DNA from: Hemerocallis citrina
Lineage: Eukaryota > Streptophyta > Magnoliopsida > Asparagales > Asphodelaceae
Reading direction: 5' to 3'
NCBI GenBank assembly: GCA_017893485.1
Contig: CM030362.1
Coordinates: 177,940,166-178,004,165 of the forward strand
Length of the DNA: 64,000 nt
Part shown: in pieces, positions 4,915 to 64,000 of the stretch
Position numbering within the stretch: position 1 is the stretch's first letter
How the letters are laid out: the number at the start of each line of letters is the position of its first letter
Position numbers and translations under genes: made by a program
The notes under the pieces: generated by a model
What the model saw: only the letters and a program-made list of their open reading frames with translations
Databases searched by the model: none
What the model was told of the DNA's origin: nothing

Positions 4915-5517
4915 TGTTACCGCTGAATCTGGTGTGGGGGTAAACAGATGAGATTTGTGAGTTCGTGGAAAAACCTGAATAGCGGATCCATGCCTGCTGA
5001 TTCCTGCCGCTCACCTGCAAGGAAGTGCGATACACCGGGGTTGATTCCGGCGACGCACCCTCCGACGCTCTTGTCAGTAACCAGTGATGATTAAGAAAGA
5101 GCTTAAGTTGGAAAAAGAGTGATTACCTGGTTACAGTGGTAGGTAGGAGGTATTTATAGTCGCCATGGGAGTCTGATTAGGGACCTGATTTCCTGTCAAA
5201 CCGTTAAGAGTAAAATCCTCATAATTAGTTTAGGAAACTGATCCCTGATTCCCGGTGAGAGGATAACTGCAAATCAGGCCCGTTGATTTAGTCAAATCAG
5301 TGACCCTGATCTCCTCTTGTTGGTCTAGGTTTGTCTTGGGTCGGGACCCATACCCAGCTGGAGTGGATCCGTTTTGCGGGTTATTGGATCTGTGAAGGGG
5401 GAGATCCAGTGCCCGCTTCGGGTCCATCTATATGAGAAATTGCCGTTTTACCCCTAAGCTTCAAGATTCGTTCCCAATCTGGACGGTTCCGATTTAACCC
5501 TATTTTTAGCCATATCA
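4915..5517 (-). repeat. 3' LTR of Tat-1
   Basis: 603 bp, TGATATGG...TAACA on the minus strand. It matches 19341-19943 with about 17 substitutions and no length change. The minus-strand TATA box is at 5151-5159. Confidence 0.95.
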
Positions 5518-5537
5518 CGAGCCCCCCACCCCTAAAG
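5518..5537 (-). other. Polypurine tract of Tat-1
   Basis: On the minus strand the sequence just before the 3' LTR reads AGGGGTGGGGGGCTCG. It is a purine-rich tract in the expected position for plus-strand priming. Confidence 0.75.
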
Positions 5538-6800
5538 ACTGAGTGTGATCAGCCTTTGAGGAGTAGTTTAACTGTTTCAGTGGCTAGTGGAGTTGTATCG
5601 GAGTCCGAATGGAAGGTTTTGAATCTCGAAGGGGGTAGTGAGGTGATTTTTGAAGCTGTAAGCTGTTCCGAAGCCTTGTTGAATATTCGACGATTTTTAT
5701 CTATTTTTTCGGGTTATTCATTTAATTTTGCGATGTGTTAACCAATCGTTCGGGGACCTTAACAGTACATTCTAGGCAATAATTGTTCGTTCAGGGGCTC
5801 AAAAATATTTCCCCGAATTTATAATTATTTTCTAGAATTTTTAGTTAATTTTTCCGAATTTTTAGCAATTGTTTCGCAATTTTTAAATAAATAAAACGAT
5901 TAAAATAAATAAAAACTGATTTTTAATACCTATTTATGGCGTGGCTTGATCTGGGCCCTTGATCTCGCGCGAGCGCGAATATCTGAAAGATCTGGCGGTT
6001 GTAGTCGCTCGGAGGTCATTTTCTCACTTCTGGAGCTCGGATGGGCACTTGCTCGGTTAGCCGACCGGGGGTATAAGGGCTCGGCTGTCCGAGCGACGTG
6101 GCGCGATCTGAGCCGTTGGATGGTGGTGCGAATCTCGAGATGGGCTCAGTTCCCAAGAAAATGCTATCTTTTCGTCTAGCGCACGTGGCACGATCTGGAC
6201 CGTCCATCATCAGAGGCACGAATTTTTGAAAGATCCAACGGTCGTGGTCGCTTGGCAGCTTTTTCCTCTGTTTTGGAGCTCGGATGGGCACTTGCTCGGT
6301 TAGCCGACCAGGGGTATAAGGGTTCGGTTGTCCGAGCGACGTGGCGCGATCTGAGCTGTTGGATGGTGGCGCGAATCTCGAGATGGGCTCAGTTCCCAAG
6401 AAAATGCTATCTTGTCGTTTAGCGTCGCTGGCAAGATCTGGGCCGTCTGATCGAGATCTTACACGAATGTTGAGGAGAAAGTGAGTTTTCTCCGTTTTGG
6501 GGCTCGGATGGGCACTTGCTCGGTCATCCGACCGGAGGTCTGAGGGTTCGGCTGTTCGAGCAACGTGGCGCAATCTGAGCCGTTGGATGATGACATGAAT
6601 CTCGAGACGGGCCCAGTTCCCAAGAAAATGCTATCTTGTCGTTTAGCGACGCTGGCAAGATCTGGGCCATCTGATCGAGATCTTACACGAATGTTGAGGA
6701 GAAAGTGAGTTTTCTCCGTTTTGACGCTCGGATGGGCACTTGCTCGGTCAGCCGACCGGGCCCTTTGATGTTGGGGTCGGATCGTACGTCGCTCGGTTAC
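5538..6800. repeat. Tandem repeat of about 224-244 bp in the Tat-1 3' spacer
   Basis: The block GCTCGGATGGGCACTTGCTC recurs at about 6034, 6278, 6502 and 6726. Between copies lies a conserved stretch with GAGCCGTTGGATG, AATCTCGAGA and CCCAAGAAAATGCTATCTT. Single further copies lie at about 7630-7885 and 12470-12790, on either side of the reverse-strand gene. 5538-5940 is AT-rich and shows nothing recognisable. Open frames here are by-products of the repeat. Confidence 0.8.
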
Positions 6801-7885
6801 CGACCAGGAGTCCGAGGGTTAATGGGTCGGCAAGGGCAATGGCGAGCCATGGGGCCTTCGTGAGAAGGTCGAGCTGAGCTACAGGCTGCCCTCAGGGAGC
6901 ATTAATGGCGCTCCAGGATTTGTGCGGCATTTCAACTTCCCGGGGTAATTAAGATGGCGTCCTTTAATTAATGCGTAGCGCTTCAGCTTCCTAGGCGTGA
7001 CCGCCGGGCTTCCATCGTTTGGCCTCCCGAGGGTCATAATGGCTGGTCCTTGGGGGTAGGTTATAAATACCCCACTCCCCTTGTAGTTTCAGTCACAGCA
7101 ATGTTGATTTTTAGCCATCGGAGGTGTCAGCCTTGGGCGGATGCCTGGTTTTTTTTGAAAAATTCTAACCCCGGGAGCGTCGGAGGGGTGGTCACTCTTC
7201 CGCCGTGATCTTCTCCTGATTCTGACGGCCCCAGTGCGGATGTCAGGGTCAGGGGAGATCAAGGCATAAGTGATGACGACCGGAGTCCGGACCCGGGGTA
7301 CAAGGTGCTTCGGAAGGATGGGTCTCCTCCGATCTCTGTCTTCCTTTCGGGCTGACGGCTTCTGATGGTTGTCAGCCCGAAGGAGCTAGAGATGGGAGGT
7401 GTGCCGATCTGCTTTCTGACCGGGCCCCACGCGACGGTGGTTTTTCTCCCTCCTTTGAACGATTCGTGGTTTCGGATTCCGAGGCCGTAGGCCTCGAGTT
7501 GCTCACGGGTGAGAGGGGAACCAACCGAGACCTGGGGCCCGGGGGGCTCGCCGAGGGCGGTGCCTTAAACCTTTAATCCAAATTTTCTCTTGCTTCTTTA
7601 GACAAATGCGGGGTGTCTGGGTCCGAAGTGCTTCGTCCGGGCGATGTGGCGCGATCTGAGCCATTGGATGGTGGCACGAATCTCGAGACGGACCCAGTTC
7701 CCAAGAAAATGCTATCTTGTCGTTTAGCGGCGCTGGCAAGATCTGGGCCGTCTGATTGAGATCTTACACGAATGTTGAGGAGAAAGTGAGTTTTCTCCGT
7801 TTTGGGGCTCGGATGGGCACTTGCTCGGTTAGCCGACCGGGCCCTTTGATGTTGGGGTCGGATCGCACGTCGCTCGGATTTTGAT
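6801..7885. other. Tat-1 spacer with a TATA-like site and a repeat copy
   Basis: 6801-7630 is GC-richer single-copy sequence with no credible ORF. It holds TATAAATA at 7062-7069 on the plus strand. 7630-7885 repeats 6566-6803 closely, including GGCCCTTTGATGTTGGGGTC, so the last spacer repeat has been copied to the far side of this segment. Confidence 0.6.
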
Positions 7886-8043
7886 CCCGTGTGTGCCGAG
7901 CTACTTGACTTGTATCGAAACGTTTTGTCTTTTCACCAACAGTTGCTGCTCGGTCACAAAGTCATTTGGGCTTTCGTAAAGTTTCAAGAGCAGGCCAAAA
8001 GTCACGCCCTTACGTTAGGAAGCCCAAGAGACTTTTTTTTTTA

Positions 8044-8052
8044 CTATAAATC
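8044..8052 (+). promoter_or_regulatory. Likely promoter of the reverse-strand gene in Tat-1
   Basis: CTATAAATC is followed by a CT-rich stretch that suits a plant transcription start near 8075-8090. The first ATG in good context (AAAAAATGG at 8245) lies about 200 bp downstream. Direction and spacing fit the spliced gene 8245-10592. Confidence 0.5.
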
Positions 8053-9229
8053 TTCACTCCCCCACCCCAAATCTCATTATTCACTTTTACTTTCTCTCTC
8101 AGGTTTTTACTTTTCACCATCGAAGTTTTTAGCTCCTGGGTGGTGCTGCTAGCTGTCGCGGCAAGGCGTTTCTTTGCTCCAGCGAACTTTTCCGACCGTA
8201 ACAGTCACTTCAAGGTTAGTCTCTCTCCTTTCTTTTTAGAAAAAATGGTTAAGATTACTTCTTCGGATGAGACCCCCGCCTCGGATCAAGTCGTCGGCCG
8301 AGCGGGTAAAGAAAAGGAGGTGGTAGAGCCGACCGAGCAGACCGTTGTTCGGCCGAGCAAGAGTGGCGAAGTCACCGAGCCACTCCAAGAGGTTGTGTCG
8401 AAGTCCCAGAAGGGTAAGGGAGTGGTTACGATCATAGAGCAGCCGAAGACGGCAGGGGAGTTCGGTCGGCAACCAATCGTTCTGTCGAGCGTGGGGGGTG
8501 TTCGGAGCTATTCCGAAGAGATGCTGGAGAAGGTGACCCAGGGCACCGCCAAGTCGGTGGAGGAGAACGAGCCGAGAGAGTTGTCCGAGGTGGACCATAT
8601 CATTTCGGTTCTCACGGAGGCTGATTTGCATCGGATCCGGATTGGGTTCCAGATCCCTGCCAAGTATGGGCTACTTCTCCCGGGGCCTGGTTTCCGAGCC
8701 TGCACGTCGTCTTCGGCTGACGCATGCGTTTTTCCGGTCGACTCCTTGGCCGCCGGGCTTCACTTTCCTCTGCATCCGTTCATTGCCGAGGTCCTCAATT
8801 GGTAAGGCCTGTGCCCCGCCCAGCTGATGCCGAACACTTGGAGGCACGTTCTGGCATTTGTTCTTCAGTGTCAGGAGATCGGCCCCGAGCCAAGTCTGTT
8901 CCTCCTTCGGATCCTCTACCACCCTTGTCAGCCGAACAGGAATGAGCAGAGGTTCTACCTTTCGCCGCGGACAGGCGTGAAGTTGATCGAGAACCCGAAC
9001 TCGATCAAGCATTGGAAGGAGAAGTATTTCATTGTCCGAGCTCCTGCACCCTGGGCAATTCCGATAGCTTGGTCGAGGGAAGGCCTGCCCAAGCGAGCGA
9101 AGAAGGAGCCGGTGCTGAGTGACGAGGAGACGGAAGTCCTCAAGAAACTCCTCGGCCTGCCGACGCTAAGTTGGAAAGACATTACCGAGGAGGCTTTGTT
9201 CCGAGGGGGTCTCAGTCTGATCGACCCCA

Positions 9230-9305
9230 GTACGCTTCTGGTAATTTTACTTTTTGCTTGAAGTTCTTGAAAATTTTTCTGAGTTTTTTCATTCGGCTTG
9301 TGCAG
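9230..9305 (+). other. Intron 1 of the Tat-1 reverse-strand gene (phase 1)
   Basis: Donor GTACGC and acceptor TTGTGCAG. Only a phase-1 donor joins the two open frames. The stronger-looking GT at 9241 would run into a stop. The matching intron at 63826-63897 in Tat-2 is also phase 1 and follows the same Asp-Pro. Confidence 0.7.
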
Positions 9306-9805
9306 AATCCTCCAAAATGGACTATAGGGCGTTGATGGCGAAGGCCAAGGCGGATAGGGAGCAGGAGGTGAAGAAGAAGAAGAGACCCTCGACAGAACCT
9401 CAGGGCGGCCGAGCGCCGAAGACCGCCGACCTGCAGGGTGTCGTCGTTCCGGATGCCGATCCCGAGCAGGAGAAGGTCGCGGCCTCCGATCCTCCTGTCT
9501 CGGATGCGCCGACTTCAACGGCGAAGGCAGATGCTCCTGGCTCGTCGAGCGGCGCGTTCGACGTGAGTAAGGTGTTATCCCTTCAAGTTCTGCCCCTCAC
9601 TGCCGAAGCGGAGAAGATTCTGACCGAGGGGCACAAGCAGATCTTCATCCTCGACTGGCAAGTAATGAAAGTCGACGGTTTTTTGGGCGACGGCAACATT
9701 TGTATGCAGGCGGTGAAGCACCTGCCGACCACAAAGGACCGAGCGGCCCTTAAGTCCGGGGAAGTCGGGGACGCCACAATGCAGATTGCTCGGAACACGA
9801 TGTCG

Positions 9806-9896
9806 GTGAGTGGACCGAACACTTTCTTCTTGAAGCATTTTTCCGAAATTTTCTAAGTTTCTAGGTTCGGAGCTTAACGGTTTTTTCTCTTTTCAG
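9806..9896 (+). other. Intron 2 of the Tat-1 reverse-strand gene (phase 0)
   Basis: Donor GTGAGT and acceptor TCTTTTCAG (91 nt). Both flanking frames fit without a gap (phase 0). The equivalent intron in Tat-2 (63255-63325) is also phase 0. Confidence 0.8.
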
Positions 9897-10790
9897 ACCC
9901 TCTGCCACTTCAACCTCTTGCTCGAAGAGTTCGCGAGCAAAGAACAAGAGCTGATGGCGCAGTACGACCGGGAGAGGTCAGAGTGTGCAAAAGCTGTGAA
10001 GCTGCTCGATGCTGAGCAACTCCTCTTGGCAAAACGCGGTGCCGAAGTGGCCGGGTTGGAGGCGCAGCTGGCCGATGCCCTTCAGCGGTCGAAGGACGAG
10101 GCAGCCAAGCTCGAGGCCTCGGAGAAGGAGAATGCCGAGCTTAAGGAGGAGCTAGCCAAGGCTCGGTCGGAGGCAGAGAAGGCTCGGTCGGAGGCGGAGA
10201 AAGCTCGGAAGAAGACCGAGAAGATCATGGCCAAGCACCAATCGAAGGTGGCGAAGGCGAAGAGGGCCATCCAGCACGAGGCCGAGCAGCACATGTTTAA
10301 GAACATGGAGGACGCGTACGGCCGAGCCCTGCTTCATATCGCCGCTCGGAACCCTGGGTTCGACACATCCTCCTACCACTTTTACGACCCCATCGAGGGG
10401 GAGGAGGAGCTTCCCCCGACAATGCTTAGCCCCGAGGGATAGGCCGACAGTGTCGAAGACACGGGCGAGACAGAGGTCGAGGGTGAGGGGGAGGACGACT
10501 CCGAGGAGGAGAGCGAGGGCGAGGACGAGGTCGAGGGCGAGGACAAGGCCGAGGGGTCGGCAGACCCGAGCGACAAAAAGGTTGACCCCTGACTTGGTTG
10601 CGTCTTTGGTCTTTTTTTTTGTAAGGCCTGACCGTGGACTGGCCACCGCTTTTGTAACGCTTTTTGAGTTTTGAATGAAAACGCTTTTTGTTTGGCCAAA
10701 AATTCTCCAAGTGTTAGTCCCCGGATTTTGTGTTTGATTAGTCGTTTAATTTCTCCAAGTGTTGGGCGTCGGATTTATCTCTGCTTTTCA

Positions 10791-11631
10791 GGTGAAGTTT
10801 GGTCCGATTACGGAGGTTTCGTACCTTCGTAAGGAGCTGACCAAAACGAAGCGAGAGCTTTCCCATAGCCGAGAGAGGCGGTTTTATATGTTCTTGAAGC
10901 TGGAGGAGATAGAGGCAGCTGCGAGGGGGTATTGTCGCGAGTTGAAGCAGCTACGGAAGCAACCCCAAGCTCCTTGTCCCGAAGGTGAGACTGAGCGGCT
11001 TCGTAGGGAGCTTTCCGTCGTCGAGCAAAAGAATAACGAGCTCTTGGCCGAGATCCATCACTTGGAGTTAACGGAGAAAGAACACTCGGCGGAAGAAGAG
11101 AAGCTAGCTTCCGAATTGGCGAAGGTGTCATCCGAGCGCCAAAAGTTGTTGGCCGAGGTCGACAAGCTTAGGAGGATTACGATAGACAGGGAGATCGAGG
11201 TCACCCATTATCGACGACTCGCGACCGATAGCGCCGATGTCTCGGGCTCGTCAAGACCTCCTCGTTTGAAGATGTTGGCAAAGGATGATGCTCTGAGAGA
11301 TAGGATTATCGAGTTGGAAGAAGAGGTCGCATCGCTCAAGCCTCTGCCTGAGAGGGCCAACGTGCGTAGTACGTCGTGTATTCGTGAAGAGAGCGAGAGA
11401 GGGATTACCTTCTACGAACTTGCGACTCGTTTGCCTGCGGCGAGGCGGAGTCCTGCTGACGCTCAGAGTAGTGTAGCTGTCTCATCTAGCGGTGCCTCGG
11501 TCGGCGCCACAGTTGGAGTTAGCGGCGAAGGGGGATCTCGCTTCGTTGGTTTGGAATCGAGCTCGGAGGTTAGGCATCGCCGCCCCCGCGTTTCCTTGAA
11601 CCGAAGCGTACCCCTTCCAAAGAGGCACTAA
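10791..11631 (+). CDS. Coiled-coil exon B1 downstream of the reverse-strand gene
   Basis: An acceptor-like TGCTTTTCAG ends at 10790. From there the frame is open for 280 codons to the TAA at 11629-11631. The protein starts 'VKFGPITEVSYLRKELTK', is strongly heptad-like and charged to about residue 150, then turns low-complexity Ser/Gly/Arg. No known domain is visible apart from the coiled coil. A likely poly(A) signal AATAAA lies at 11714. The exon may be the 3' end of a second gene or an alternative terminal exon of the gene upstream; the donor that joins it was not identified. Confidence 0.5.
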
Positions 11632-11713
11632 ACAAGTTGTCTTATGTTCCTTTAGGCTATTGTAAAACTCTGTTGTAGCGTCGGTCTAGTTGTATGTAGA
11701 GTTACTTTATTTG

Positions 11714-11719
11714 AATAAA
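11714..11719 (+). terminator. Putative poly(A) signal after exon B1
   Basis: AATAAA lies 83 bp after the stop of exon B1, in a T-rich context. Confidence 0.4.
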
Positions 11720-11803
11720 AGTCTGAAAGTTTGTTTTGAAAATTCTTGAAGTGTTGGACTTCGGCAATGTTTGAAATTTTGTTGTTCATCTCTTCCTCTT
11801 TTC

Positions 11804-12270
11804 AGATCGTGGTGGTAGCTCAAGACGCCGACCCCAATCGCTCAGGTGACAACGCTCGAACCGAGGCTGGCTCGGGGGTGACGAGGTTGCGCTCGGCGAG
11901 GTGCCGAGAGCGGCTCTATGAAGTTGAGCTGGGATTGCGCCGAGCCGAAAGTGAGCGGGGCCACCTTCAGCTCATCCTAGGTCAGCGAGACGTCGAGATC
12001 CGGCGTTTGGATAGCAGGATCGCCGAGATGACCCCTATAGGAGAGGACGAAGGTTCGCCGACCGCCTTTAGCAACGCCCTTCGGATCCAGTGCGTTCGGC
12101 ACAATTTGTCGAAAATATTGGCCGAAAGGGACGATCTGCTCTCTAAGATCTGTCACTTGCAGACTATAGAGGCGGAGCTTCGGACGAAGGAAGAGGAACT
12201 GGCGGCCGAGGTTGCTAAACTGACGACCGAACGGGACGTTGATGATTTTTCTTTTAAAAACCAAGTGTAG
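11804..12270 (+). CDS. Coiled-coil exon B2, a diverged duplicate of B1
   Basis: It begins after an acceptor-like CTCTTTTCAG at 11803 and runs to the TAG at 12268-12270. It parallels B1: 'RDDLLSKICHLQTIEAELR' matches 'NNELLAEIHHLELTEKEHS', and 'EEELAAEVAKLTTER' matches 'EEKLASELAKVSSER'. The intron-like sequence before each copy shares the phrase AAGTGTTGG(A/G)C. B2 also has 'DVEIRRLDSRI', which resembles the Tat-2 exon at 62141-62644. Function unknown. Confidence 0.5.
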
Positions 12271-13515
12271 TGGGTCGGCATTGTAACTTTTGTTCTTTAA
12301 GGCCTTGTGACCTTGTTGTATGGAAGAGTCGCTTTGTACTATGTCCCAATTATTAATAACATTTCTTTCTCGAACTAGCACGTCCTTCGTAGCCTCGTGT
12401 AGTCGCTTTGTTTGTGACAGTGTTCATCGTGCCGAGGTCCCCGAGCCGGCCCCTTTCTCGTTCGCGGTTCGGTGCCGTAGCGCGATCTGAGCCGTTGGAT
12501 TTTGGCACGAATCTTGAGACGGCTCAGATCCCAAGAAAACGTTATCTTGTCATTTGGCGATGCTGGCAAGATCTGGGCCGTTGGATGATGGCACGAATCT
12601 CGAGACGGCTCAGTTCCCAAGAAAACGCTATCTTGTCGGGCTGGCAAGATCTCGGCCGTCTGATCGAGATCTTATACGAATATTGAGGGAAAAGTGATTT
12701 TTCTCCGTTTTTGGGCTCGGATGGGCACTTGCTCGGTTAGCCGACCGGAGGTCTATGAGATCGGCTGTTCGAGCGACGTGGCGCGCTCCGAGCCTACCTC
12801 TCGCTCGTTCACAGTTCGGCGACAAGGGCGTTCGGCCAGAGGTGCCGAGCAGCGCTTCGGTCTCCTCTTCTTGCGAAGTTGCGAGATGAGTCGAGCCTTA
12901 CACAATGGTGGACTCGCCGATCATCGTGAGAGTTCGACGGTCGTCGAAGCAATTCCGAATGGCGACCCACTCCTAGCCTCTTGCGGAGTAGAATCGAACC
13001 AAGTGTTGGACTCCGGAACCATCATTAGAGTTCAACGGTCGTGGGAGCAATTCCGAATGGCGACCCACTCCTAGCCTACTTAGAAGCGAGCTTGCGGAGT
13101 AGAATCGAACCAAGTGTTGGACTCCGGAACCATCGTTAGAGTTCAACGGTCGTGGGAGCAATTTCGAATGGCGACCCACTCCTAGCATGCTTAGAAGCGA
13201 GCTTGCGGAGTAGAATCGAGCCAAGTGCTGGACTCCGGGACCATCGTTAGGATTGTTTAACGATTGTGGGAGCAATTTCGAGCGGCGAACTACATCTGGC
13301 TCGCTTAGGAGCGAGCTTGCAAAGTAAAGTCAAGCTGGGTATTGGACTCCGAACCATTGATTGAATAAAGAAAAAAGGCGGAGAGACACAAGCAATTTTA
13401 TAAGTATGAAAAAGCATTCTTTATTGATAATTGACGACGAGCCATTTTTACATATGACAACTTAAGAGAAGAATTACAAGTTAGAGGAGAGGAATGGTTT
13501 AACACCCCGTGATAC
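12271..13515. repeat. Convergence zone of Tat-1 with tandem repeats
   Basis: No gene. 12470-12790 carries two copies of the spacer repeat seen at 5940-6800. 12900-13350 is a tandem array: the block (T/C)CGAATGGCGACCCACTCC recurs at about 12957, 13056 and 13166, with a diverged copy near 13280. The spacing is 99, 110 and 114 bp. The gag-pol transcript (minus) and the reverse-strand gene (plus) meet here. Confidence 0.75.
13419..13425 (-). terminator. Putative poly(A) signal after Tat-1 pol
   Basis: AATAAAG(AATGC) on the minus strand, about 95 bp beyond the pol stop at 13516. Tat-2 has AATAAAGAAC about 120 bp after its pol stop. Confidence 0.45.
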
Positions 13516-16500
13516 TCAGAGAGGTGCCGGGGCGCTTTCTTGGTATTTTAAAAGGTGGTCGGCATTCCAGGTCCTCGGAATCTCCCTGCCCTCGAGGTCT
13601 TCCAAACGATAAGCTCCGGGCCGAACTACCCTTGCGATCCTGTAAGGTCCTTCCCAATTCGGGGCTAGTTTGCTCTTCTGACTGGGGAAGGAGATGGCTA
13701 GTTTTCTGAGGACTAAGTCCCCCTCCTTAAGATCGGTGGGTCGGACTTTCTTGTTGTACGCCAATTCGATCCTCCTCCGGTAGTTCTGTTGGCGGATCGA
13801 CGCCCTTTCTCTCAATTCGTCCACCAGGTCTAGGTTCGCCCGGAGGTCTCTGGCATTCTGTTCCTCGTCGTAGGCTGCGAGGCGAGGAGAAGGTATTCCG
13901 ACTTCGAGAGGTATTACTGCCTCGGCCCCATAGGTGAGGTTGAACGGGGACTCTCCTGTGGGGGTCCGTTTGTTGGTGCGGTAGTTCCACAGCACGTTGG
14001 GGAGTTGGTCGACCCATAAGCCTTTGGAACATTTGTCCAATCTCTTCTTGATACCAGAGAGGATCTACCGGTTAGCGTTCTCCGCCTGGCCATTCGACTG
14101 TGGGTGGGAGACGGAGGAGAAGCACTGTTGGATGGCGAGGTCTTCACATAGAGCTCGGAACGCGGCCCCAGTAAACTGAGTTCCGTTGTCTGTTACGAGG
14201 ACACGGGGGACGCCGAATCAGCAGATGACGCTCTTCTAGAAGAATTGAAGCACCTTGCTCTCGGTGACAGTGGCAAGGGGTTCGGCCTCAATCCACTTCG
14301 AGAAGTAGTCGATGGCTACGACCAAGAACTTGAACTGGCCCGGAGCTGGAGGGAATGGCCCTAGTAAATCCATCCCCCACATTGCGAAGGGGATAGGACT
14401 TGATAGGGAGGCGAGGTTGGCTTGGGGGAGGCGACGAATGTTGGAATGTCTCTGACAAGAGCCATATTGCCGAACGTGTCGCTCGGCGTCTTGGAGGAGA
14501 GTCGGCCAGAAGTATCCGTAATTCAGAGCTTTCCGAGCCAAAGACCTAGACCCTGAATGTGCCCTGCCGATGCCTTCGTGGAGCTCCTGTAAGGCGTAGT
14601 CGGCCTGTTCTGGGGAAAGGCACCTCAGGTACGGTCGACCGTCAATCTGCGAGAAGGAGCGCTTGTACAAGATCCCCTCGATCAGGATGTACCACTCGGC
14701 CCTGGTTCTTACTCGGCGTGCTTCCTTGGGGTCCTCGGGGAGGAATCCGTCCCTTAAGAATTCCACTAACGGCTTCATCCAATTATTTTGCAGTAGGACC
14801 GACAATGACTCCACTGAGTCCGGGGTCTCGTCTTCTATACTCGGTTTCAAGAGGACCACGATCAAGACAGTCTGCTCGAGACCTTGGAGGGAGGATGAGG
14901 CCAACTTGGAGAGGGCGTCGGCTTGTGAATTCTCTTCTCGAGGGACTTGTTGGATGAGTGCCTCTTCGAACCGGACCATGAGGGTTCGGACTTTGGCGAG
15001 GTACTTCGCCATCTGTTCGTCTCGTGCCTCGTAATCGCCCAAAACTTGGTTCACAACCAGCTGAGAGTCACTATGGATTCGGAGGCGCTGCGCCCCGGCA
15101 CTTCGGGCAAGTCCGAGGCCCGCGATTAGTGCCTCATACTCTGCTTCGTTGTTTGAGGCCTTGAAATTCATGCAGAGGGCATACTGGAGGACGAAGTCAT
15201 CTGGACCCGTCAGGATGATACCGGCGCTGCTTCCCTCGTTGCAAGAGGAACCATCCACAAAAACCGTCCAAATAGGGGGTCCGTTCGGGACATGGCTGAC
15301 CTCGGGAATGGTGGTCTCGACGATGAAGTCCGCGAGGGCTTGAGCTTTGATTGCAGTCCGGGGCTGGTAAGAGATGTCGTGTTGGCTCAGCTCGATGGAC
15401 CATTTCATAAGCTGGCCTGAGGTTTCCGGCCTATGGAGGACCTGCTTCAGCGGTTGGTCGGTGAGGACCACAACCGAGTGGGACTGAAAGTATGGGCGGA
15501 GCTTCCTTGCCGCCATAACCAGGGCGTAGGCCATCTTTTCTACCTTCGGGTAGCGGAGCTCGGCGTCCCGAAGCACCTTGCTCACATAGTAAATGGGCCT
15601 CTGGGTCCGGTCTTCTTCCCTCACCAAGACGGCACTTAGGGCAGCTAGGTAGATGAAGAGGGTTTCCCCTGGAACAGGCTTGCTGAGCAGGGGAGGATTG
15701 GCCAAGTAGGCTTTCAGCTGTTCGAACGACTCCTGTTGCAATTCGCCCCACTCGAAACCCTTGGCCCCCCTGAGAGCCTTGAAGAAGGGGAGGCACTTTT
15801 CCCCAGACTTCGAAAGGAATCGCCCAATAGCGGCGAGGCGACCAGTAAGCCTCTGCACTTCCTTGATGTTCCGGGGCGGGGCCATGTCCAGTATGGCCTT
15901 AATTTTTTCAGGATTTGCTTCGATCCCTCGCTGGCTGACCATGAAGCCGAGGAACTTTCCTGACGAGACCCCGAACGCACACTTGTTCGGATTAAGTCTC
16001 ATGTTGTGCCTTCTCAGTACGCCGAATGCCTTCTGTAAGTCGGTCACGTGGTCGGTACCTCGGACGCTCTTCACAAGCATGTCGTCGACGTATACTTCCA
16101 TGTTGCGACCTATCTGGCTTTAGAAGACTTTGTTGACGAGGCGCTGGTAGGTGGCTCCAGCATTCTTCAATCCGAACGGCATAACTCTATAACAGTAGAG
16201 GCCTTGGTCGGTAATGAAGGAAGTCTTCGGAATGTTCGGGGGGAACATTCGGATCTGGTTGTAGCCGGAGAAGGCATCCATGAAGCTGAGGAGCTCATGG
16301 CCTAAGGTGGCATCGATGAGGGTGTCGATATTTGGGAGAGGGAACAGATCCTTTGGACACGCCTTATTCAAGTCTGTGAAGTCGATGCGTATCCTCCAGG
16401 AACCATTTGACTTCTTAACCATGACGACGTTGGAGAGCCACTCGGGGTAGTTCACCTTCTGTATGAACCGAGCTTTTAGGAGCTTGTCCACCTCCTCCTT

Positions 16501-17659
16501 GATGGCTTGTTGTCGCTCGGGAGCAAATTTATGCCTCTTCTGCTGGACCGGTCTGCACCCCGGTTCGACGCTGAGGCGATGCACTAGAAGCTCCTCGAAA
16601 ATCCTGGGCATATCCACGGCGGACCAAGCAAATAGGTCGCGGTTCTCCCGGATGCACTGCACCAAGTCGGAACATAGGGCAGTCGGCAGGGACTTGCTGA
16701 TGAGGAACTTTCGACTCGGGTCCTCATATGAGAAGAGCACTTCTTCCAATTCGTCCGCCGGCTCGGACGTGGGTCGGACATTCGGCTCGGGGATTTCTAA
16801 AGTCTCGAGGGAGAGCACCGGACCCCCAGTGGAAGTCATGTAGCACTTCCGAGCCGTCTCTTGGCTGTCCCTGACTTCTCCCACTCCCGCCCGGGTTGGG
16901 AACTTCATCTTGAGGTGGTACGCCGAAGGAACGGCTTCCAGGGCAGCTAGGCCAGGTCGGCCCAAGATGACATTGTATGCGGTCGGGACATCGACGACCA
17001 TAAAGTCCATCGGCTCTGTCCGGGTGGTAGGGGTCTTCCCAGCAGTTACGTCCAGAGTGATAACCCCTTCGACAGTTACTGGTACCCCCCGTGAACTCGT
17101 GGAGCGTGTAGCCGGCCGGTTTGAGGCGATCCCAGGATAGTTGCAGCCCTCGGAAGGCCGAGAGGAAGAGGATGTTCACGGAGCTCCCGTTGTCTACCAG
17201 GATCCTCTGCACTTTGAAGTTTGTCATGCAGAGGTCAATAACAAGTGCATCGCAGTGGGGAGTTCGGACCCCCTCGAGGTCTTCATCAGAGAAAGTTACT
17301 AGGACGCCGAGGCCTTTGGGGGGAGGGGCACCGTAAACTGAGTTGACCTCTCGGACGAAGGCCTTCCGAGAGGAGTTGGAAGAGCCCCCCATTGGACCCC
17401 CGTGGATAAGGTGCAGAACACGTTCCTCCTCGAACTCGGGGGTTTCATCTCGTCGCTCGGAGCGCTTGTTAGCCCCCCGAGGTGGAGGAGTGGTGCGATC
17501 TCCCCGATCATTTGTCTTCACAAACTTAGCTAACTGCCCCCTCTGGATGAGGGCCTCTATTTCGTTCTTCAGCGCCCGGCAATCGTTGGTGTCGTGGCCA
17601 TGATCCCGGTGGTAACGACACCACTTCTCCTTGTTCCTCCTCTTGGTCGGGGTGTTCAT
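13516..17659 (-). pseudogene. pol: Tat-1 pol: protease, RT, RNase H, second RNase H and integrase
   Basis: Reading down the minus strand: a CHHC-type knuckle 'CRYHRDHGHDTNDC' (about 17620-17579), protease with 'ILVDNGSSVNIL' (about 17190), and RT with 'FTDLNKACPKDLFPLP' and YVDD (about 16090). RNase H has 'LTDQPLKQVL'. A second RNase H (about 15275-14895) has 'VFVDGSS', 'NNEAEYEAL' and 'HSDSQLVV'. Integrase has 'GMDLLGPF', 'DNGTQF' and 'QAENANR'. Breaks: one extra C in the C-run 17085-17090 shifts the protease frame, a stop lies between RT blocks near 16120, and integrase has stops near 14236, 14220 and 14063. The first Cys of the integrase zinc finger is Tyr. The intact C-terminus 13516-14040 ends 'ADHLLKYQ'. 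Confidence 0.93.
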
Positions 17660-19267
17660 CCTCAGTGCGGGAGGTATAACTCCCTCCTTCTCGACTTACA
17701 TCAGGATGGTGGAGACGTTGGTAGTGAGAGAAGTAAATTTCTCGAACCTGGGAGGAGGACGGTGCTGACCGCTTTTATCCTTCTGTAGCTTCTTGGCCCC
17801 TTCCTCTTCCGTTGTCTTTCTCTTCGACCCGGAAGTGGATCCTCCGAAGCCCGGGAAGCACTCGACTTCCTCAGCCCGAATATACTTCTCGCATCTAAGG
17901 AGAAGGTCGGCGAAGTTGTGCGGGGGCTTTTTGGCTAGGGACGACCGAAGGTTAGAGTTGAGGACGTTGGATTGGAATGCGACGGTCGCCACAGACTGGT
18001 CGAGGGAGGCGATGGACCTGACCTCCGCAGTAAATCTCCTCACATAGTCCCTCAACTTCTCTCCCCTCTCCTGTCGGAGGTGGAGTAGAGAGAGGCTGGT
18101 CTTCTCCGTTCGTCTGCTGCTCACAAAGTGAGTTATGAAGAGCATTTCGAACTGCTCAAAGGAGAAGATGGAAGAGGGAGCGAGCCGGGAGTACCATTCC
18201 CGCGCCGAACCCTTGAGAGTGGCGGGGAAGGTTTTGCAAAGCATGGTGTCAGAAGCTTGGTGGATTAGCATCAAGGTCTTGAAGCTCTCGACATGATCAA
18301 CAGGGTCCGACTCCCCTAAGTACGTTTCAAACTGCGGAGGCTTGAAACCCCTCGGGATGGGAGCCTCCATGATAGTCCGAGAGAAGGGGGGTTTGCTGGG
18401 GCGGACGGTCCTTCCTCTCGACTCCTCCTCCTTATCCATTCGCCCGATGCGCCTTTCCATCTCGTGGAGACGACGGTAGAGGGCATCATCCCTCCGGTGG
18501 TAGTCAAACGATCCCCTGGACTCGTCTTCATAGGAAGGGGAGCGGGGACTACGGCGTCGATAGTCCTGGGATCGGCGAGGACTATGAGGGTGTTGCTAGT
18601 GACTAGGAGCCGGGGGAGGACTTATGGATCGGTGGCGAGGACTTGGGACCCGTGGGGGTGTTGGAACCCTTTGGGAAGTATTGTTGTTGTGGCGAAGGTT
18701 GAGGGCTTGCAACACCGTTGCCTGGAATTGTTGGAACTCGGCACGAGTAATGGGTGCCTCATTGTTCCTCGGATGATGCCGACCAGCAGGGGAATGTGGC
18801 CTCCTCCTACGACGTTCGGGAGATTCCCCCCGTCCTCTTCGGTCCGGAGACCTCCCGCCATCTCGGCGATGAGGAGATCGCTCACCTTGATGTTGGCGGG
18901 AGACTCCCTCTCGGGCCCGCTTCTCATCTAGGCGGTTGCGAAGGTCCTCATCCTTCTGCCGATTTAGAACGGTGTTGCGGAGATCGGAAGCTCGGGGATT
19001 ATGGGAGGCCATAGAATCCGAGGAGGAATTGTGCACTGAGACATGGTCAGGGTGGAGAGGTTGCTTCTGCTTCCGCTGGTTCTGACCAGTGGGACCATTA
19101 GGGGGTTGTTGATTCGGAAGAAGGTGCTGGCCCTGTTGGAAATGGTCTTGGACCGGGGGAGGAAGTTGTTCGGGCTGCGGAGCAGGATGTACGGGGACTT
19201 CCTCTTGTTGATCGGTGGGGTTGGGTCCACGGTTGGACCCCCTGGACCTGACCTTTTTGGGAGGCAT
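17660..19267 (-). pseudogene. gag: Tat-1 gag
   Basis: Starts with MPPKKVRSRG, 74 bp inside the LTR, and continues in one frame into pol. The N-terminal third is rich in Pro, Gln, Arg and Ser. The conserved core lies at about 18400-18030 and includes 'PPQFETYLGESDPVDHVESF', 'LKGSAREWYSRL' and 'RRFTAEVRSI' (Retrotrans_gag family). It would assemble the particle. Stops at 18596-18598 and 17696-17698 both look like Gln codons changed by C to T. Confidence 0.9.
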
Positions 19268-19319
19268 GGCTGGAGAAGAGCTAGTCGACGGGAAGAGGAG
19301 AGGCTGCTATTCGTATGGT

Positions 19320-19340
19320 TTCCCACATACGGCGCCAATC
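19320..19340 (-). other. Primer binding site of Tat-1
   Basis: Right inside the 5' LTR the minus strand reads TTGGCGCCGTATGTGGGAA. The Tat-2 site (TGGCGCCGTCTGTGGGAA at 53639) is almost the same, which supports both elements being in one lineage. The primer tRNA was not assigned. Confidence 0.75.
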
Positions 19341-19943
19341 TGTTAACGCTGAATCTGGTGTGGGGGTAAACAGATGAGATTTGTGAGTTCGTGGAAAAAC
19401 CTGAATAGCGGATCCAAGCCTGCTGATTCCTGCCGCTCACCTGCAAGGAAGTGCGATACACCGGGGTTGATTCCGGTGACGCACCCTCCGACGCTCTTGT
19501 CAGTAACCAGTGATGATTAAGAAAGAGCTTAAGTTGGAAAAAAAGTGATTACCTGGTTACAGTGGTAGGTAGGAGGTATTTATAGTCGCCATGGGAGTCT
19601 GATTAGGGACCTGATTTCCTGTGAAACCGTTAGGAGTAAAATCCTCATAATTAGTTTAGGAAACTGATCCCTGATTCCCGGTGAGAGGATAACTGCAAAT
19701 CAGGCCCGTTGATTTAGTCAAATCAGTGACCCTAATCTCCTCTTGCTGGTCTGGGTTTGTCTTGGGCCGAGACCCGTACCCAGCTGGAGTGGATCCGTTT
19801 CGCGGGTTATTGGATCTGTGAAGGGGGAGATCCAGTGCCCGCTTCGGGTCCATCTATATGCGAAATTATCGTTTTACCCCTAAGCTTCAAGATTCGTTCC
19901 CAATCTGGACGGTTCCGATTTAACCCCATTTTTAGCCATATCA
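19341..19943 (-). repeat. 5' LTR of Tat-1
   Basis: 603 bp, TGATATGG...TTAACA on the minus strand, followed by CCTAG. A TATA box (CTATAAATA, minus) at 19577-19585 should drive the genomic RNA. Confidence 0.95.
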
Positions 19944-40178: not shown

Positions 40179-40196
40179 ATTCTAGTTGTTGAAGAA

Positions 40197-44667: not shown

Positions 44668-44672
<5 letters not shown>

Positions 44673-44825: not shown

Positions 44826-44858
<33 letters not shown>

Positions 44859-45079: not shown

Positions 45080-45080
45080 T

Positions 45081-45090
45081 ATATATATAT

Positions 45091-53080: not shown

Positions 53081-53635
53081 TGATATGGGTTAGGAATGAC
53101 GTGGCTCATCCTGGGCCACAGGATCCCCTCAGGATACGCGCACCCCCTGATTCTCCAGATCCGCCACGTCAGCATCGGAAAACCGCCCGGGCATCCGCCA
53201 CGTCAGCCCTAAACCGCCCGGGTTTCCACCGCTTCAGCCAAACGGGCAACCGGGTCCAGACCCGGCCCCCAAACGGGTCCAGACCCGGTTGACATCTTCT
53301 ATAAATACCAGACCCCTACTCCTTCTCCAGGTAATGAACTCTTGCCCACTCAAACCCTAGTTACTGTTACTCTCCCTTAGTGACTAACTAGATCGTCGGA
53401 GGGTCTGCCACCGGGACCAACCCCGGTGTTCCGAGACCGTCTGCAGGTACACAAGACCCTCGGATCCAAGCCTCAAAGATCCGAGCCGAGCATCAGCCTC
53501 CGCCTCAATACCGCCTACCTCAGTACCGTTCGTCCAGCCAAGGGTCGTCTGTATAGGTGTCTCCTCCTTCAATACAAATTGAGTAAGAACTCATGCCTGG
53601 TGCATCCACACGTTTACCAAAAACAAACTGCATCA
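53081..53635 (+). repeat. 5' LTR of Tat-2
   Basis: TGATATGGG...CTGCATCA, 555 bp, followed after three bases by the primer site TGGCGCCGTCTGTGGGAA (53639-53656). TATAAATA at 53300-53307 is the probable core promoter. Confidence 0.8.
53300..53307 (+). promoter_or_regulatory. LTR promoter TATA box of Tat-2
   Basis: TATAAATA followed by CCAGACCCC and pyrimidine-rich DNA, about 335 bp before the end of the LTR. Confidence 0.6.
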
Positions 53636-53638
53636 GGA

Positions 53639-53656
53639 TGGCGCCGTCTGTGGGAA
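53639..53656 (+). other. Primer binding site of Tat-2
   Basis: TGGCGCCGTCTGTGGGAA, nearly the same as the Tat-1 site. Confidence 0.75.
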
Positions 53657-55216
53657 CTTGCCTATCGTAGACGCCAACCCGAGCCCCGCTTCCAACGGTA
53701 CCCTAAAAAACGCCGACCCGAGCTCCGCCCCCGTCGGCATTCCCGTCGACCCGAGCTCGCATGGAGCCCAAAAGCCGTTACCTCCGCACGCCGACACGAC
53801 GTGCCTCCGCAAGGCATCGATGCCGATGCCCAGGGACCAAACAACAAAAGGGTCAACCACGGGCCCCAGCCGAACGCCTCCCGCCCGATCCAGGGCGACC
53901 TACGGGGGGTAATCTCGAACCGCCAGGCCAGCCGTGGCAGGGGAGGAGCCGCTTCCAACTCGGCTCCGAACCATCCCAGACCCCCGTCCCAAGGGGCTCC
54001 GAACCATCCCAGACCCCCGTCCCAAGGGCTGGAGCTTGTGCTCAGCCGGGTCGGTCGGCAACAGTTTGCCCAACTGAACCAGGCCGAAGGAGCCCCGGTT
54101 ACCCACCAGGAATTCCAGGACTTCCGAAGGAAAATCTTGGGTGCCCTCCGAGGAGTCCCCGTTAACGAGAACGCCCGCCGTTCCCACACACAGTCGCAGG
54201 CCGAGGCTACCGTGTCTCGCCACTTAACAATCCCCCAAGAGTATGATGGCGACATTTTGAAGCGCCTCCAAGAAATGGAGGAGCGCCTCGACCACGTTGG
54301 TAACGACGACCCTAGAGCAGCTCAGGGGTACAAGCCGGTTCGTCCTCCGTTCTCCGCCCTCATCCTGCAGGCAGAGATACCCCGCAGTTTCCGTCCGCCT
54401 CAGTTCGAGACATATGACGGCGAGGGCGATCCTGCTGATCACATGGAGGGCTTCAAAACCCTCATGATGATTCACAGCGCATCGGATCTCCTCCTATGCC
54501 GAGCCTTCCCCGCAACACTCCGGGGTCCGGTCCGGGAATAGTTCTCCAAGCTCACCCCCGGCTCTATCTATTCTTTCGACCAGCTAGAGGGCAGTTTCCT
54601 CGCCCACTTCGTAACCAGCCGAAAGGCCGAAAGAACGAGTGCATCACTCCTCGGACTCCGGCAAAAGGAGGGGGAGCCCCTCCGAGTGTTTGTCCGAAGG
54701 TTCACCGCCGAAGCGAGGTCAGTCTCATCCCTCGACCCCGGCGTTGCCTCGGCAGCCTTCCGCCACAACGTCCGACATGGACAGCTGAAGGCCTCCCTGG
54801 TAAAGAAGCCGCCGATAGACTTCCCCGACCTCCTCAATCGGGTCGAAAAATATATCCGAGCCGAGGAGGCCCTCAATCCCGAGGACCAGAAGGAAGCTCC
54901 CGGGAAGGGGAAGCGCAAGGCCGACGAGATTGAGCCGACGAAAAAAGCTCCAAGAGACGGGGGCTCCGCAAAGAAGGTTCTGCCGATTCACCGCTTCGAG
55001 AGGTACACCCCACTGACGCAGAACGTGTCGACAATCCTCTTAGCGATTGAAGACAGCGACCTCGTCCAGTACCCCCCTCGACCGTCCAACAACACCAGCA
55101 AAAAGAGGGATCAACGATTCTATTGCCGTTTTCACCGGGACAACGGGCACGACACGGATCACTGCCGCGCCCTGAAGGACGAAATTGAGGCCCTCATCCA
55201 ACGAGGGTACCTCTGA
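53657..55216 (+). pseudogene. gag: Tat-2 gag
   Basis: The start is unclear: the first part is coding-like in a different frame (53658-53912) from the rest, so an early frameshift is likely. Then a Pro/Gln-rich stretch. The core has 'PPQFETYDGEGDPADHMEGF', 'RVFVRRFTAEARSV' and 'IDFPDLLNRVEKYI' (Retrotrans_gag). It ends with the CHHC knuckle 'CRFHRDNGHDTDHC' (about 55120-55163). TAG at 54539-54541 stands where Tat-1 has Trp ('REWYS'), and TGA at 55214-55216 where an Arg (CGA) codon is likely. Confidence 0.88.
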
Positions 55217-58200
55217 GAGTTCCGACAAGAAAGCGTCTGGGAACCGAGGGACAACAGGAACAGGAGGGATTCCCCTCCTCCTCGAGGGCACCGACAGCGT
55301 CCCGAGCGGGATCCGAATCCCGAGGAGCCTGAAGGTCAAGCGATCCTGCATTGCGTGCACGGAGGGCCTATGGGAGGCGAATCTAACACTTCCCGCAAAG
55401 CCTTCATCCAGGATGTCAATACCGTCCAGGGCCCTCTCTCCCCTCCGGTCCAGCAACTCCCTGTCTCCTTCTCAGGAGAGGATCTGGAGGGGGTCTGGCT
55501 CCCTCACTGTGACGTCCTCGTCATCAACCTCGGCATGGCAAACTTCGACGCCCGGAGAATCCTCGTAGACAACGGGAGCTCGGTCAACATTCTGTTCCTC
55601 GAAGCATTCAAGAACCTAAAGCTCTCTCGTGAGAAACTAAAGTCAGCCGGGTACACCCTACACGGATTCTCCGGCGTCCCCGTGACTATAGAGGGGATAG
55701 TCACCCTGGACGTCACGGCGGGCACAAAGCCCAACAGAAGGACCGAGTCCATGGACTTCATGGTTGTGAATGTAAAGGCAGCTTACAATGCCATCCTCGG
55801 CCGCCCGGGGCTCTGCTCCGTCCAGGCGGTCCCCTCGGCCTACCATCAGAAGATGAAATTCCCTACCAACACTGGCGTCGGAGTTGTCCACGGGAATCAG
55901 GAAGCAGTACGTTCGTGCTACATGACGGCGATCGAAAGCGGTGTGTTTCCCCTCGATGCCGTCGAGCTGGCGCCCGAAAGGACCCAGCCAGAGCCAGAGC
56001 CGGCAGACGAACTGCAAGATGTCTCGTTCGAGACAGGGGATGTGTCGAAGCACTTTCGTGTAAGCTGCTCCCTCGCCCCCGACCTCAAGTCCGCCCTAAT
56101 CGTCTGCATTCAGCGCAATGTCGACCTCTTTGCCTGGAAGGCCTTTGACATGCCCGGTACCTCCGAAGATCTCATCATGCACAAACTCAGCGTGATTCCC
56201 GGGTCGAAGCCAGTCGTCCAAAAGCGGCGTAAGTTCGCTCCCGAGCGACAACAGCCAGTAAACGCAGAAGTGGACAAGCTCTTGTCCGCGCATTTTGTGC
56301 AAGAGGTCAGCTATCCAGAGTGGCTGGCGAACGTCGTCATGGTAAAGAAGGCGAGCGGGAGTTGGAGGATCTGTATAGATTTTACCGACCTCAACAAAGC
56401 ATGTCCCAAGGATCTGTTCCCTCTCCCCAGCATTGATGCCCTGATCGATGCTACCTCGGGTCACGAGCTCCTCTCCTTCATGGATGCCTTCTCAGGCTAT
56501 AACCAAATCCGGATGTTCCCTCCGGACATCGCCAAGACGTCCTTCGTCACGGACCAGGGACTGTATTGCTACCGGGTCATGCCCTTCGGGCTGAAGAACG
56601 CCGGCGCCACCTACCAGAGGCTCGTCAACCGAGTCTTTAAAGATCAGATCGGGCGTAACACGGAGGTTTACGTCGACGACATGCTCGTCAAAAGTCAACA
56701 CGGACAGCACCACGTCGCCGACCTGGAAGAAGCCTTCGGGGTCCTTCGAACCCACAACATGAGACTCAATCCGGCGAAGTGCGAGTTCGGCGTCTCCTCG
56801 GGAAAATTCTTAGGGTTCATCGTCAGCCAGCGCGGCATCGACTAACCCCGAAAAAATTCAGGCCATAACAAACATGGCCCCTCCCAGGAATGTCAAAGAA
56901 ATCCAGAGGTTAACGGGGCGACTGGCGGCCATCGGCCGTTTCCTCTCCAAATCCGGAGAGAAGTCACTCCCGTTCTTCAAAGCACTGCGCGGCACTGGAA
57001 GGTTTGAGTGGGGTACTCAACAGCAAGAGGCCTTCGCACAGTTGAAGGAGTACCTCGCCAACCCCCTCTCCTCAGCAAGCCCGAACCAGGGGAGCCACTC
57101 TGGCTCTACCTATCCGCTTCGGAGAACGTACTCAGCGTCGTCCTCGTCCGAGAAGAGGAAGGGGTTCAAAAGCCCCTCTACTATGTGAGCAAGGACCTGC
57201 TCGACGCCGAGACCCAGTATTCCAGAATGGAAAAAGTGGCGTACGCCCTGGTCGTAGCCGCGCGGAAGCTTCGTCCTTACTTTCAGGTGCATTCGATCCA
57301 GGTGCTCACGGATCAACCCTTGAAGGTCGTGCTCTACAAACCCGAGAACTCCGGACGACTAGTCAAATGGTCGATCGAACTCAGCCAGTACGACATCGGC
57401 TATCAACCAAGAACGTCCATCAGGGGGCAAGTCCTCGCCAAATTCATTACAGAATGCACCATCTCCGAGCAACCCTCGAGCAAAGAAGCCGACCAGACGT
57501 GGGAAGTTTGCGTCGACAACTCCTCTTGCGAAACGGGGAGTGGTGCGGGAATCATTCTCCAAGGTCCGGATCGCTTCCTTCTCCAGTATTATCTCCGCCT
57601 CAACCTCCCGGCCTCTAACAACGAGGCTGAATACGAGGCGATGATCGCCGGGCTCAACCTGGCTCATCAAGCCGGTGTCAGACAGATCCGGGCCTTTAGC
57701 GACTCTCAGCTGGTGGTCAGCCAGATCACCGGTGAATACGAGGCCCATGACGATCGGATGATCAGGTACCGGGCCAGGGTCCAACACCTATTATCGTCCT
57801 TCGACGAATCGGCTGTCATAAGAATCCCCCGGGAGCTGAACGCACAGGCCGACGCCCTGTCGAAATTGGCTTCATCATCCTTTGAAGGCCTCGACCGCAC
57901 GGTCCTGATTGAAGTCCTGTTGAAGCCAAGTACAGACACCCCGGAGGTTCTGTGCGTCAAAGATGGAGCTCCTCCGGACGACTGGACCACCCTTATCAAA
58001 AAATTTCTAGTCAAGGGAACCGAAGACCGAGCTGAAGCAAGGCGGACCAGGGTCCGATCTGAAAGGTTCGCGGTCATCAATGCCACCCTCTTCAAAAGAT
58101 CCTATACAACAACAGACGGCAGACCCTACCTCCGCTGCCTAAGCCCAGACGAAGCCAAGTACGCCCTCAAGGAGCTGCACGAGGGGATCGGCGGATGCCA

Positions 58201-62140: not shown

Positions 62141-62644
62141 TCACTCACACTCGGCTGGGAACTCGAATTCAGGGCTCCTATCACGCTCGGCCGGACCGAC
62201 CCGGGAAGACGCTCCCGCCACCGAGCTCCCTGCATCTTCGGGCTGCGCCACATCCGGTAGAAATATCGGAGACCGCCCCGGGGTCGCGTTGCTGGTCCCT
62301 TCTATCGGACCAGTGCCTAACAATAGCTTCAGTCTGCGGATCTCCAGCTCCTTCTCGACTACGGCCTCACGAAGGAAAGACACCGAAGCCGACCCACCGC
62401 TCGAAGCATCCGAGAGGGACCAGCCTGTCTCGATAACCCACCAGTCCCGGTCGGCTATGGCCTTCTTCAGGCGCGCCAACTCCAAGCCGAGCTCCCTGGA
62501 CCTGTTCAGAAAATAGTTAACGGCAGCGGCACGGTCCCGAGCTTGCTTCTGTTGACGAAGCAGAGCTGCCTCCGTGGCCTCCTCCCCCGCTCGATCTAAA
62601 GGTACCTCGGCAACAACGGGGAGGGCGACACAGGTCCCGTGCGT
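62141..62644 (-). CDS. Coiled-coil exon B of the Tat-2 reverse-strand locus
   Basis: An acceptor-like TTTTGATAG lies just before 62644 on the minus strand. From there 167 codons are open to the stop at 62141-62143. The protein begins 'THGTCVALPVVAEVPLD', then a heptad-rich part ('ELGLELARLKKAIADRDWW', 'EKELEIRRLKLLLG') and a low-complexity tail. It matches the position and style of Tat-1 exons B1 and B2; 'EIRRL' and a Pro/Ile/Gly segment align with B2. Function unknown. Confidence 0.55.
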   Translation of the reverse strand, partial: THGTCVALPVVAEVPLDRAGEEATEAALLRQQKQARDRAAAVNYFLNRSRELGLELARLKKAIADRDWWVIETGWSLSDASSGGSASVSFLREAVVEKELEIRRLKLLLGTGPIEGTSNATPGRSPIFLPDVAQPEDAGSSVAGASSRVGPAERDRSPEFEFPAECE

Positions 62645-63897: not shown

Positions 63898-64000
63898 CAG
63901 GGTCGGCAGGACTCAGTCCGGCCCGGGCGAGGTGTATCTCGGTCACTCGAGGCCACGCGATACTGTGCCCCCGACAATCTTCTCCACCCTCTTCCACTCC

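Follow-up and report, generated by a model that had tools for sequence, protein, structure and literature searches.

A predicted spliced antisense gene and its 3' tag in Tat-type retrotransposons of Hemerocallis citrina

The DNA considered here, referred to below as the window, is a stretch of 64,000 nucleotides (nt) from Hemerocallis citrina (GenBank assembly GCA_017893485.1, contig CM030362.1, positions 177,940,166 to 178,004,165 of the forward strand). It holds two Tat-type long terminal repeat (LTR) retrotransposons, element A (4915..19943, minus strand) and element B, whose gag-pol region occupies 53426..59230 on the plus strand. A sequence-only reading of the window had claimed that both elements carry a gene on the strand opposite to gag-pol, between pol and the 3' LTR, and the coordinates of its parts in A and B bear this out. 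This gene is probably an accessory gene of Tat/Retand-type retrotransposons that is transcribed antisense to gag-pol from a TATA promoter of its own and spliced.

Exons and introns of the antisense gene

In element A the gene runs on the plus strand. A predicted promoter with the TATA box ACTATAAATC (8043..8052, plus strand) lies about 200 nt before the ATG at 8245, which opens exon E1 (8245..9229). This exon encodes a TRP28 domain (PF04195) that is split in the window copy by an in-frame stop at 8803-8805, so that the two parts reach only 11.4 and 17.9 bits, below the cut-off of 26.2; the domain of the related locus L040 scores 62.8 bits. The stop is unique to the window copy and is absent from the other 29 aligned copies of family A, which consists of the window copy and 29 others that are 92-95% identical to it. 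Intron 1 (9230..9305, phase 1) runs from CCCA/GTACGC to TTGTGCAG/, the slash marking the junction, and is followed by exon E2 (9306..9805) with a basic cluster, noted by eye, and a conserved C-terminal region. Intron 2 (9806..9896, phase 0, TCG/GTGAGT to TTTTCAG/ACC), which is found in 30 of 30 family copies, leads into exon E3 (9897..10592), where a coiled coil and an acidic tail precede a natural end in KVDP and a stop at 10590-10592. A further stop within E3 (10440-10442) is shared by the window copy and, counting it, six of the 30 family-A copies. Behind E3 stands a 16-nt tag, GCGGACTGGCCACCGC (10634..10649, plus strand, one mismatch in A), which is followed by TTGTA and AATGAA. Two more plus-strand exons lie beyond it, namely O4 (10792..11631), with a coiled coil, a phase-0 acceptor CTTTTCAG/GTG and a conserved C-terminus, and the terminal exon O5 (11806..12270), with a phase-0 acceptor CTTTTCAG/ and no early Met. 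All coiled coils were called by eye and have Pfam support below cut-off only.

Two other versions of intron 1 were rejected, one with the donor CTG/GTATTT that puts E2 out of frame when the A-group junctions are joined by hand, the other an in-frame intron of 43 nt, which is too short for a plant intron. On the minus strand, long open reading frames (ORFs) lie opposite E1 (8239-9165) and are likely a by-product of its codon use. The word CCAAGTGTTGG occurs before O4 at 10755 and again at 12999 and 13110, in a repeat region near the pol of A, and near-copies of it stand before O5.

In element B the gene runs on the minus strand and leaves the window within E1, of which the 3' part is present (63898..64000). 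The TRP28 domain itself lies beyond the window end, in L039, and scores 41.2 bits, above the Pfam cut-off. Intron 1 (72 nt, phase 1, donor G/GTATGT) follows behind DP residues and separates E1 from E2 (63326..63825), which has one in-frame stop in the window copy; intron 2 (71 nt, phase 0, donor TCG/GTAAGT) separates E2 from E3 (62802..63254). An exact copy of the tag (62745..62760) is followed by AATGAA 27 nt on, and a terminal exon O (62141..62644, 167 codons with zero Met) begins at the phase-0 acceptor TTTTGATAG/ACG. B's E1 shares 33% identity with that of the family-A copy L020, and its E2 29-33% with those of the A group of loci. The earlier claim that both copies have the same parts thus stands for place, splice phase and the match of E1 and E2, and falls short for the sequences of E3 and O. 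For B's E3 no A-group match was found at E<=10, and for O none to A's O4 or O5 better than E=0.084, both of which count against the gene model; these two exons appear to correspond to those of A by place, splice phase and the intervening tag, and not by sequence. The terminal VDP of E3, present in L040, L041, L001 and spinach and replaced by VDT in L044, was dropped as a general feature, the E3 of B ending in NPLQE.

Recurrence and selection

Both introns occur at the same places and in the same phases in A, B, L040, L041, L043, L005 and L044, and both are kept in all 30 aligned family-A copies. This can be explained by their orientation, since introns antisense to the genomic RNA are represented there as reverse complements, which the spliceosome would not read, and would thereby survive retrotransposition. 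The aligned copies were chosen as the best 30 of 37 scored matches, out of 13889 first-look candidates, a choice that under-represents older copies. Counterparts of all five exons are present in L040, L041, L043 and L005 (46-82% protein identity) as well as in L044 and L001 (30-55%). Open natural models of the three-exon gene were obtained for two of four modelled copies, L040 and L041, with 719 and 713 amino acids. The word CTATAAAT precedes the ATG by 171-201 nt in A, L040, L043, L005 and L044 and also stands upstream of the gene in L001, hence in six of the eight loci that hold upstream sequence, L041 having too little of it to judge, and it is present in 28 of 30 family-A copies. A three-exon, two-intron architecture of E1 to E3 is thus predicted with high confidence.

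Outside these loci, a search of 5.8 billion proteins brought up one relative in Ficus carica and one in Spinacia oleracea, and a profile search added Ensete ventricosum and Rubroshorea leprosula; since the profile itself included the Ficus and Spinacia proteins, its E-values for these two are not independent. The four plant relatives are annotated as hypothetical, uncharacterized or TRP28-type proteins. Inspected by eye, all four contain basic clusters, and three, the predicted Spinacia, Ficus and Rubroshorea proteins, combine a TRP28-type region with a basic cluster and a coiled-coil-like stretch, the Rubroshorea protein having no listed Pfam domain. A sequence search of the PDB gave chance-level matches only (E 0.34 and 0.48).

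Selection was assessed between loci and within family A. Between loci, the ratio of nonsynonymous to synonymous substitution rates (dN/dS) is 0.15-0.23 for E1, 0.14-0.32 for E2, 0.18-0.35 for E3 (without L005, whose frame is broken), 0.16-0.26 for O4 and 0.34-0.55 for O5, all in the A group at dS 0.16-1.1 and in keeping with purifying selection; the table rests on chosen copies per exon, with stop codons skipped and only pairs with dS >0.15 used. With values of 0.14-0.35 between families, E1 to E3 are therefore not a chance feature, and all five exons look protein-coding over the long run, with O5 under the loosest constraint. Within the 30 copies, variants private to one copy should mostly reflect post-insertion decay, and variants shared by at least three copies should mostly derive from active parents. 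In E1, protein-changing to silent variants (N/S) stand at 190:96 among private and 28:58 among shared variants (1.98 versus 0.48; odds ratio 4.1, p=4.4e-8), and the two other plus-strand frames of E1 show the opposite trend. O4 has 161:80 private versus 24:25 shared (p=0.022). The p-values come from five tests and are uncorrected; variants in exactly two copies, gapped codons and codons with fewer than 20 copies were omitted, the ranges of O4 and O5 began 42 and 66 nt before their acceptors, and the count for E3 stopped at 10523. Taken together, the antisense gene is real by sequence evidence. The dN/dS values, the N/S contrast in E1 and the conserved intron places uphold the earlier view of a long-kept accessory gene that does not owe its existence to chance; dN/dS near 1 was not found across elements, and homologues exist beyond the two window copies.

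Several observations weigh against this gene model or parts of it. In L001, intron 2 is present and the region of intron 1 seems to be missing; in L042, intron 2 is again present, the frame is open across the place of intron 1 and the latter is unsupported. The intron 1 donor of family A (GTACGC) is weak, that of B being GTATGT. None of the 30 family-A copies is open through E1 to E3, both window copies are interrupted, and L043 and L044 are the broken ones among the four modelled copies. Upstream of the gene in B and L042, CTATAAAT was not found. In the 30-copy test, E2 (101:49 private, 21:20 shared, p=0.067) falls short of p<0.05, and E3 (106:62 and 31:22, p=0.63) and O5 (130:52 and 23:11, p=0.68) do so more clearly; the minus-strand frame that shares the wobble positions of E1 also has a low shared N/S (0.73, p=1.1e-5), as expected. 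Moreover, a region-limited search with TRP28 only gave nothing at E<=0.01, and a fold search with the TRP28 model of the Ensete relative (mean predicted local distance difference test score, pLDDT, of 55) matched no solved fold.

The 3' tag and the ends of the transcript

Behind the E3 stop, GCGGACTGGCCACCGC is the only word of at least 10 bases common to five lineages (the A group, L044, L001, L042 and B), and a control with B and L042 reversed gave zero words of at least 10 bases common to all five. The tag is exact in seven of nine loci, with one change in A and L005, and within family A it is exact in 17 of 30 copies and present with at most two mismatches in all 30. With the same tolerance it was recovered in 10 of 16 further TRP28 loci, compared with 6 of 3200 tries with permuted motifs, and the other six of the 16 are without it; L051 and L058 as well as L053 and L054 are close relatives, which leaves about eight independent loci among the ten. 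Of 19 tagged loci, 18 have AATGAA or AATGCA 19-29 nt beyond the tag. Because this spacing is nearly fixed, the tag and the words behind it suggest a module that serves 3'-end processing of the antisense transcript. An RNA hairpin formed by the 16-nt tag is unsupported, as six short segments fold no better than shuffles (z -1.52 to 0.31), and a search for a UGUA-like pattern, permissive with its five alternatives, was not counted as evidence.

How the gene continues beyond E2 can be read in more than one way. Because each of them ends in a stop, E3, O4 and O5 are read as alternative last exons, with O in the place of O4 and O5 in B, and this is plausible at somewhat less than even confidence. 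The transcript could end behind E3 at the tagged polyadenylation site, or E3 could be skipped and the strong phase-0 donor of E2 joined to O4 or O5, or to O in B; different tails would then be attached to one TRP28 head. The acceptors of O4, O5 and O are conserved or pyrimidine-rich and all in phase 0. O5 lacks Met altogether in L040; in L041, L043 and L005 its Met residues come late (108 and 115), and A has a single one at 75. For want of a usable start codon, translation of O5 or O in full would require splicing from a phase-0 donor. Within the A group, both stops and C-termini are conserved in E3 (KKVDP) and O4 (PLPRRP-like).

Other observations tell against alternative ends. In all five loci O4 carries a Met near its beginning (residue 33 in A and L040, residue 19 in L041, L043 and L005), which makes a start of its own possible, and two weaker phase-0 GTs inside E3 in the four loci compared, AAG/GTGAAG and, just before the stop, AAG/GTCGAC, could feed O4 as well. 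Within some 150 nt, O4 is followed by an exact AATAAA or AATGAA in one of five loci (A) and O5 in three of five (L041, L043 and L005); such a word is also present behind the O of B. As poly(A) words after O4 and O5 proved scarcer than first thought and E3 and O of B are without a significant match, confidence in alternative terminal exons was lowered from evens to slightly below, and a similar small step was taken downwards for interchangeable tails combined with the tag and upwards for two separate genes, which now stand alike as tentative.

Two antisense genes in a row are possible, though on balance improbable: E1 to E3 would form the first, and O4/O5 (O in B) the second, with its own start or a short first exon and promoter located between the polyadenylation site of E3 and O4. 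The conserved stop of E3 and the polyadenylation-like module, both of which precede O4, would fit such an arrangement, as would the early Met (19 or 33) of O4 in all five loci. However, an own Met start would cost O5 and B's O half or more of the exon, phase 0 is common to all terminal exons and the E2 donor, and the sole conserved GT of fair score between the E3 stop and the O4 acceptor (four loci) is weak and of mixed phase; a conserved start codon was not searched for. A single linear gene E1-E2-E3-O4-O5, with donors inside E3 and O4, as the sequence-only reading implies, is distinctly unlikely. It could draw on the two phase-0 GTs in E3, the better of which, AAG/GTGAAG (AAG/GTGGCG in A), has donor scores of 6-7 of 9 in four loci. 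Yet E3 past this GT is conserved coding sequence, and the stops and C-termini of E3 and O4 described above are kept in the A group; donors inside O4 were not searched for. The exon list of the sequence-only reading was right, and a joining of these exons into one chain is doubtful.

If the terminal exons are indeed alternative, the gene may further be pictured as an alternatively spliced back-strand gene in which a TRP28 head exon pair is combined with interchangeable coiled-coil tails and the tag fixes the polyadenylation of the short form, a proposal that is put forward tentatively and is rather unlikely as a whole. Were it true, the element would make a set of nuclear proteins with a common nucleic-acid-binding head and differing oligomerising partners, and the tag might be a site read by the protein itself or by the 3'-end machinery to choose between forms. 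In L044 and L001, adjacent stretches match first O5 and then O4; given this arrangement, O4 and O5 may derive from one ancestral exon.

Host elements, known relatives and possible role

Element A is delimited by a 5' LTR (19341-19943) and a 3' LTR (4915-5518) that are 97.2% identical, with ends TG...CA and a 5-bp target-site duplication, CCTAG. Its minus strand encodes gag (17696..18460, Pfam Retrotrans_gag) and pol (14236..17010) with reverse transcriptase (RT), native RNase H, a second RNase H (RVT_3) and an integrase zinc domain, the pol frame being broken between ORFs; gag, RT and RNase H exceed their Pfam cut-offs and the integrase zinc domain lies under its own. The gag-pol region of B comprises RT, two RNase H domains and an integrase core, and the two elements share 53-69% protein identity across three gag and pol pieces (gag 53%). 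In the pol of both, RT_RNaseH is followed by RVT_3. An added RNase H (aRH) beside the native one is said to distinguish the Tat clade among Ty3/gypsy elements (PMC10508981), and since the second RNase H, a putative aRH, adjoins the native one in pol, A and B can be assigned to this clade. The Retand trait of an antisense gene in a long spacer between pol and 3' LTR is present in both. In A, where the end of pol could be placed only roughly, this spacer extends over 5519-14235 at most and seems longer than the published 2.9-6.6 kb.

Tandem arrays occupy parts of the spacers of A (5960-6805) and B (59318-61203). Units of near 224 nt are found both in the array of A and in B at 59904-61203, and an array at 59318-59963 that adjoins the pol of B consists of 54-nt units that are free of stops on the minus strand, where they would translate into an 18-residue repeat. 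Direct repeats (1-553 and 20044-20597, 94.8% identical) surround element A, which is therefore probably nested in an older LTR element that extends past the window start. A further direct-repeat pair (32102-32594 and 40187-40666, 87.6% identical) possibly represents the LTRs of another element, and a cluster of inverted and direct repeats at 44276-46918 has arms that are up to 98% complementary.

Extra ORFs in Tat elements were reportedly described by Steinbauerova in 2011. Transposase_28 was recorded in 23% of Retand elements (Neumann 2019, PMC6317226), a study alike in its extra ORFs of Tat elements, whose passages on them come without gene model or selection test. Antisense TRP28 ORFs, predicted to bind DNA, are reported for all but 2 of 63 Retand clusters (97%; Vicient 2025, PMC11963269), and these resemble the present gene in antisense orientation, place between pol and 3' LTR and TRP28 (PF04195), as well as in Smc-like antisense companions and tandem repeats in the spacer. 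The statement of the sequence-only reading that some Tat elements have antisense ORFs was therefore correct and yet an understatement, such ORFs being a hallmark of young Retand elements. That survey used ORF finding; intron, TATA and polyadenylation are absent from its main text, and splic or exon occur in its reference list only, so that the exon model, the reading of alternative ends and the 16-nt tag are additions here. The maize Grande gene23 (Gomez-Orte 2013, as related in the review PMC7264820) is likewise an antisense accessory gene at the same place, with its own promoter and a nuclear protein, and is likened to the present gene by description, not by sequence; the same review (Vicient and Casacuberta 2020) asks for a search for spliced antisense transcripts. 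In the literature searched, the intron positions, the 3' exons O4, O5 and O, the TATA box and the 16-nt tag were not found, which other papers could hold. Overall, this is a known kind of gene, and what is new is a better gene model, with the alternative tails and the conserved tag as its open, testable part.

As for the product, a nuclear regulator is conceivable with slightly less than even confidence. Following transcription against gag-pol from the TATA promoter and splicing, the protein would enter the nucleus, oligomerise through its coiled coil and act on DNA, chromatin or RNA of the element itself. A particular role can be named only speculatively, the most likely being that of a transcriptional or anti-silencing regulator. 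The structural, nuclear-entry or silencing-related roles offered by the sequence-only reading are likewise guesses. The anti-silencing protein of VANDAL elements is known as VANC. Accessory anti-silencing proteins of this kind (PMC11728184) provide a functional analogy only, VANDAL elements being DNA transposons. The nuclear product HBZ of the antisense gene of HTLV-1, a comparison drawn in PMC11963269, belongs to a retrovirus, and homology is not claimed. A role of the antisense RNA itself, with the protein being secondary, has been raised as well (PMC7264820): it would form double-stranded RNA with the genomic RNA and tune silencing, in keeping with a gene that lies wholly inside the sense transcription unit, but neither dN/dS of 0.14-0.35 nor introns kept in phase would be expected from such a role, which is very unlikely. 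Chance ORFs or a dead relic, which the interruption of both window copies and all 30 aligned family-A copies might suggest, are refuted as far as sequence allows by the existence of open copies and by dN/dS far below 1 between loci at dS 0.16-1.1.

The preferred reading, a spliced accessory gene that probably has its own promoter, bears on a widespread feature of flowering plant genomes: antisense TRP28 genes are reported for nearly all young Retand clusters surveyed (PMC11963269). Annotation that proceeds ORF by ORF hides introns and thus yields partial proteins. The exon model, the list of splicing-dependent exons and the 3' tag make the antisense gene directly testable, and its predicted structure illustrates a way for introns to persist in a retroelement over repeated cycles of copying.

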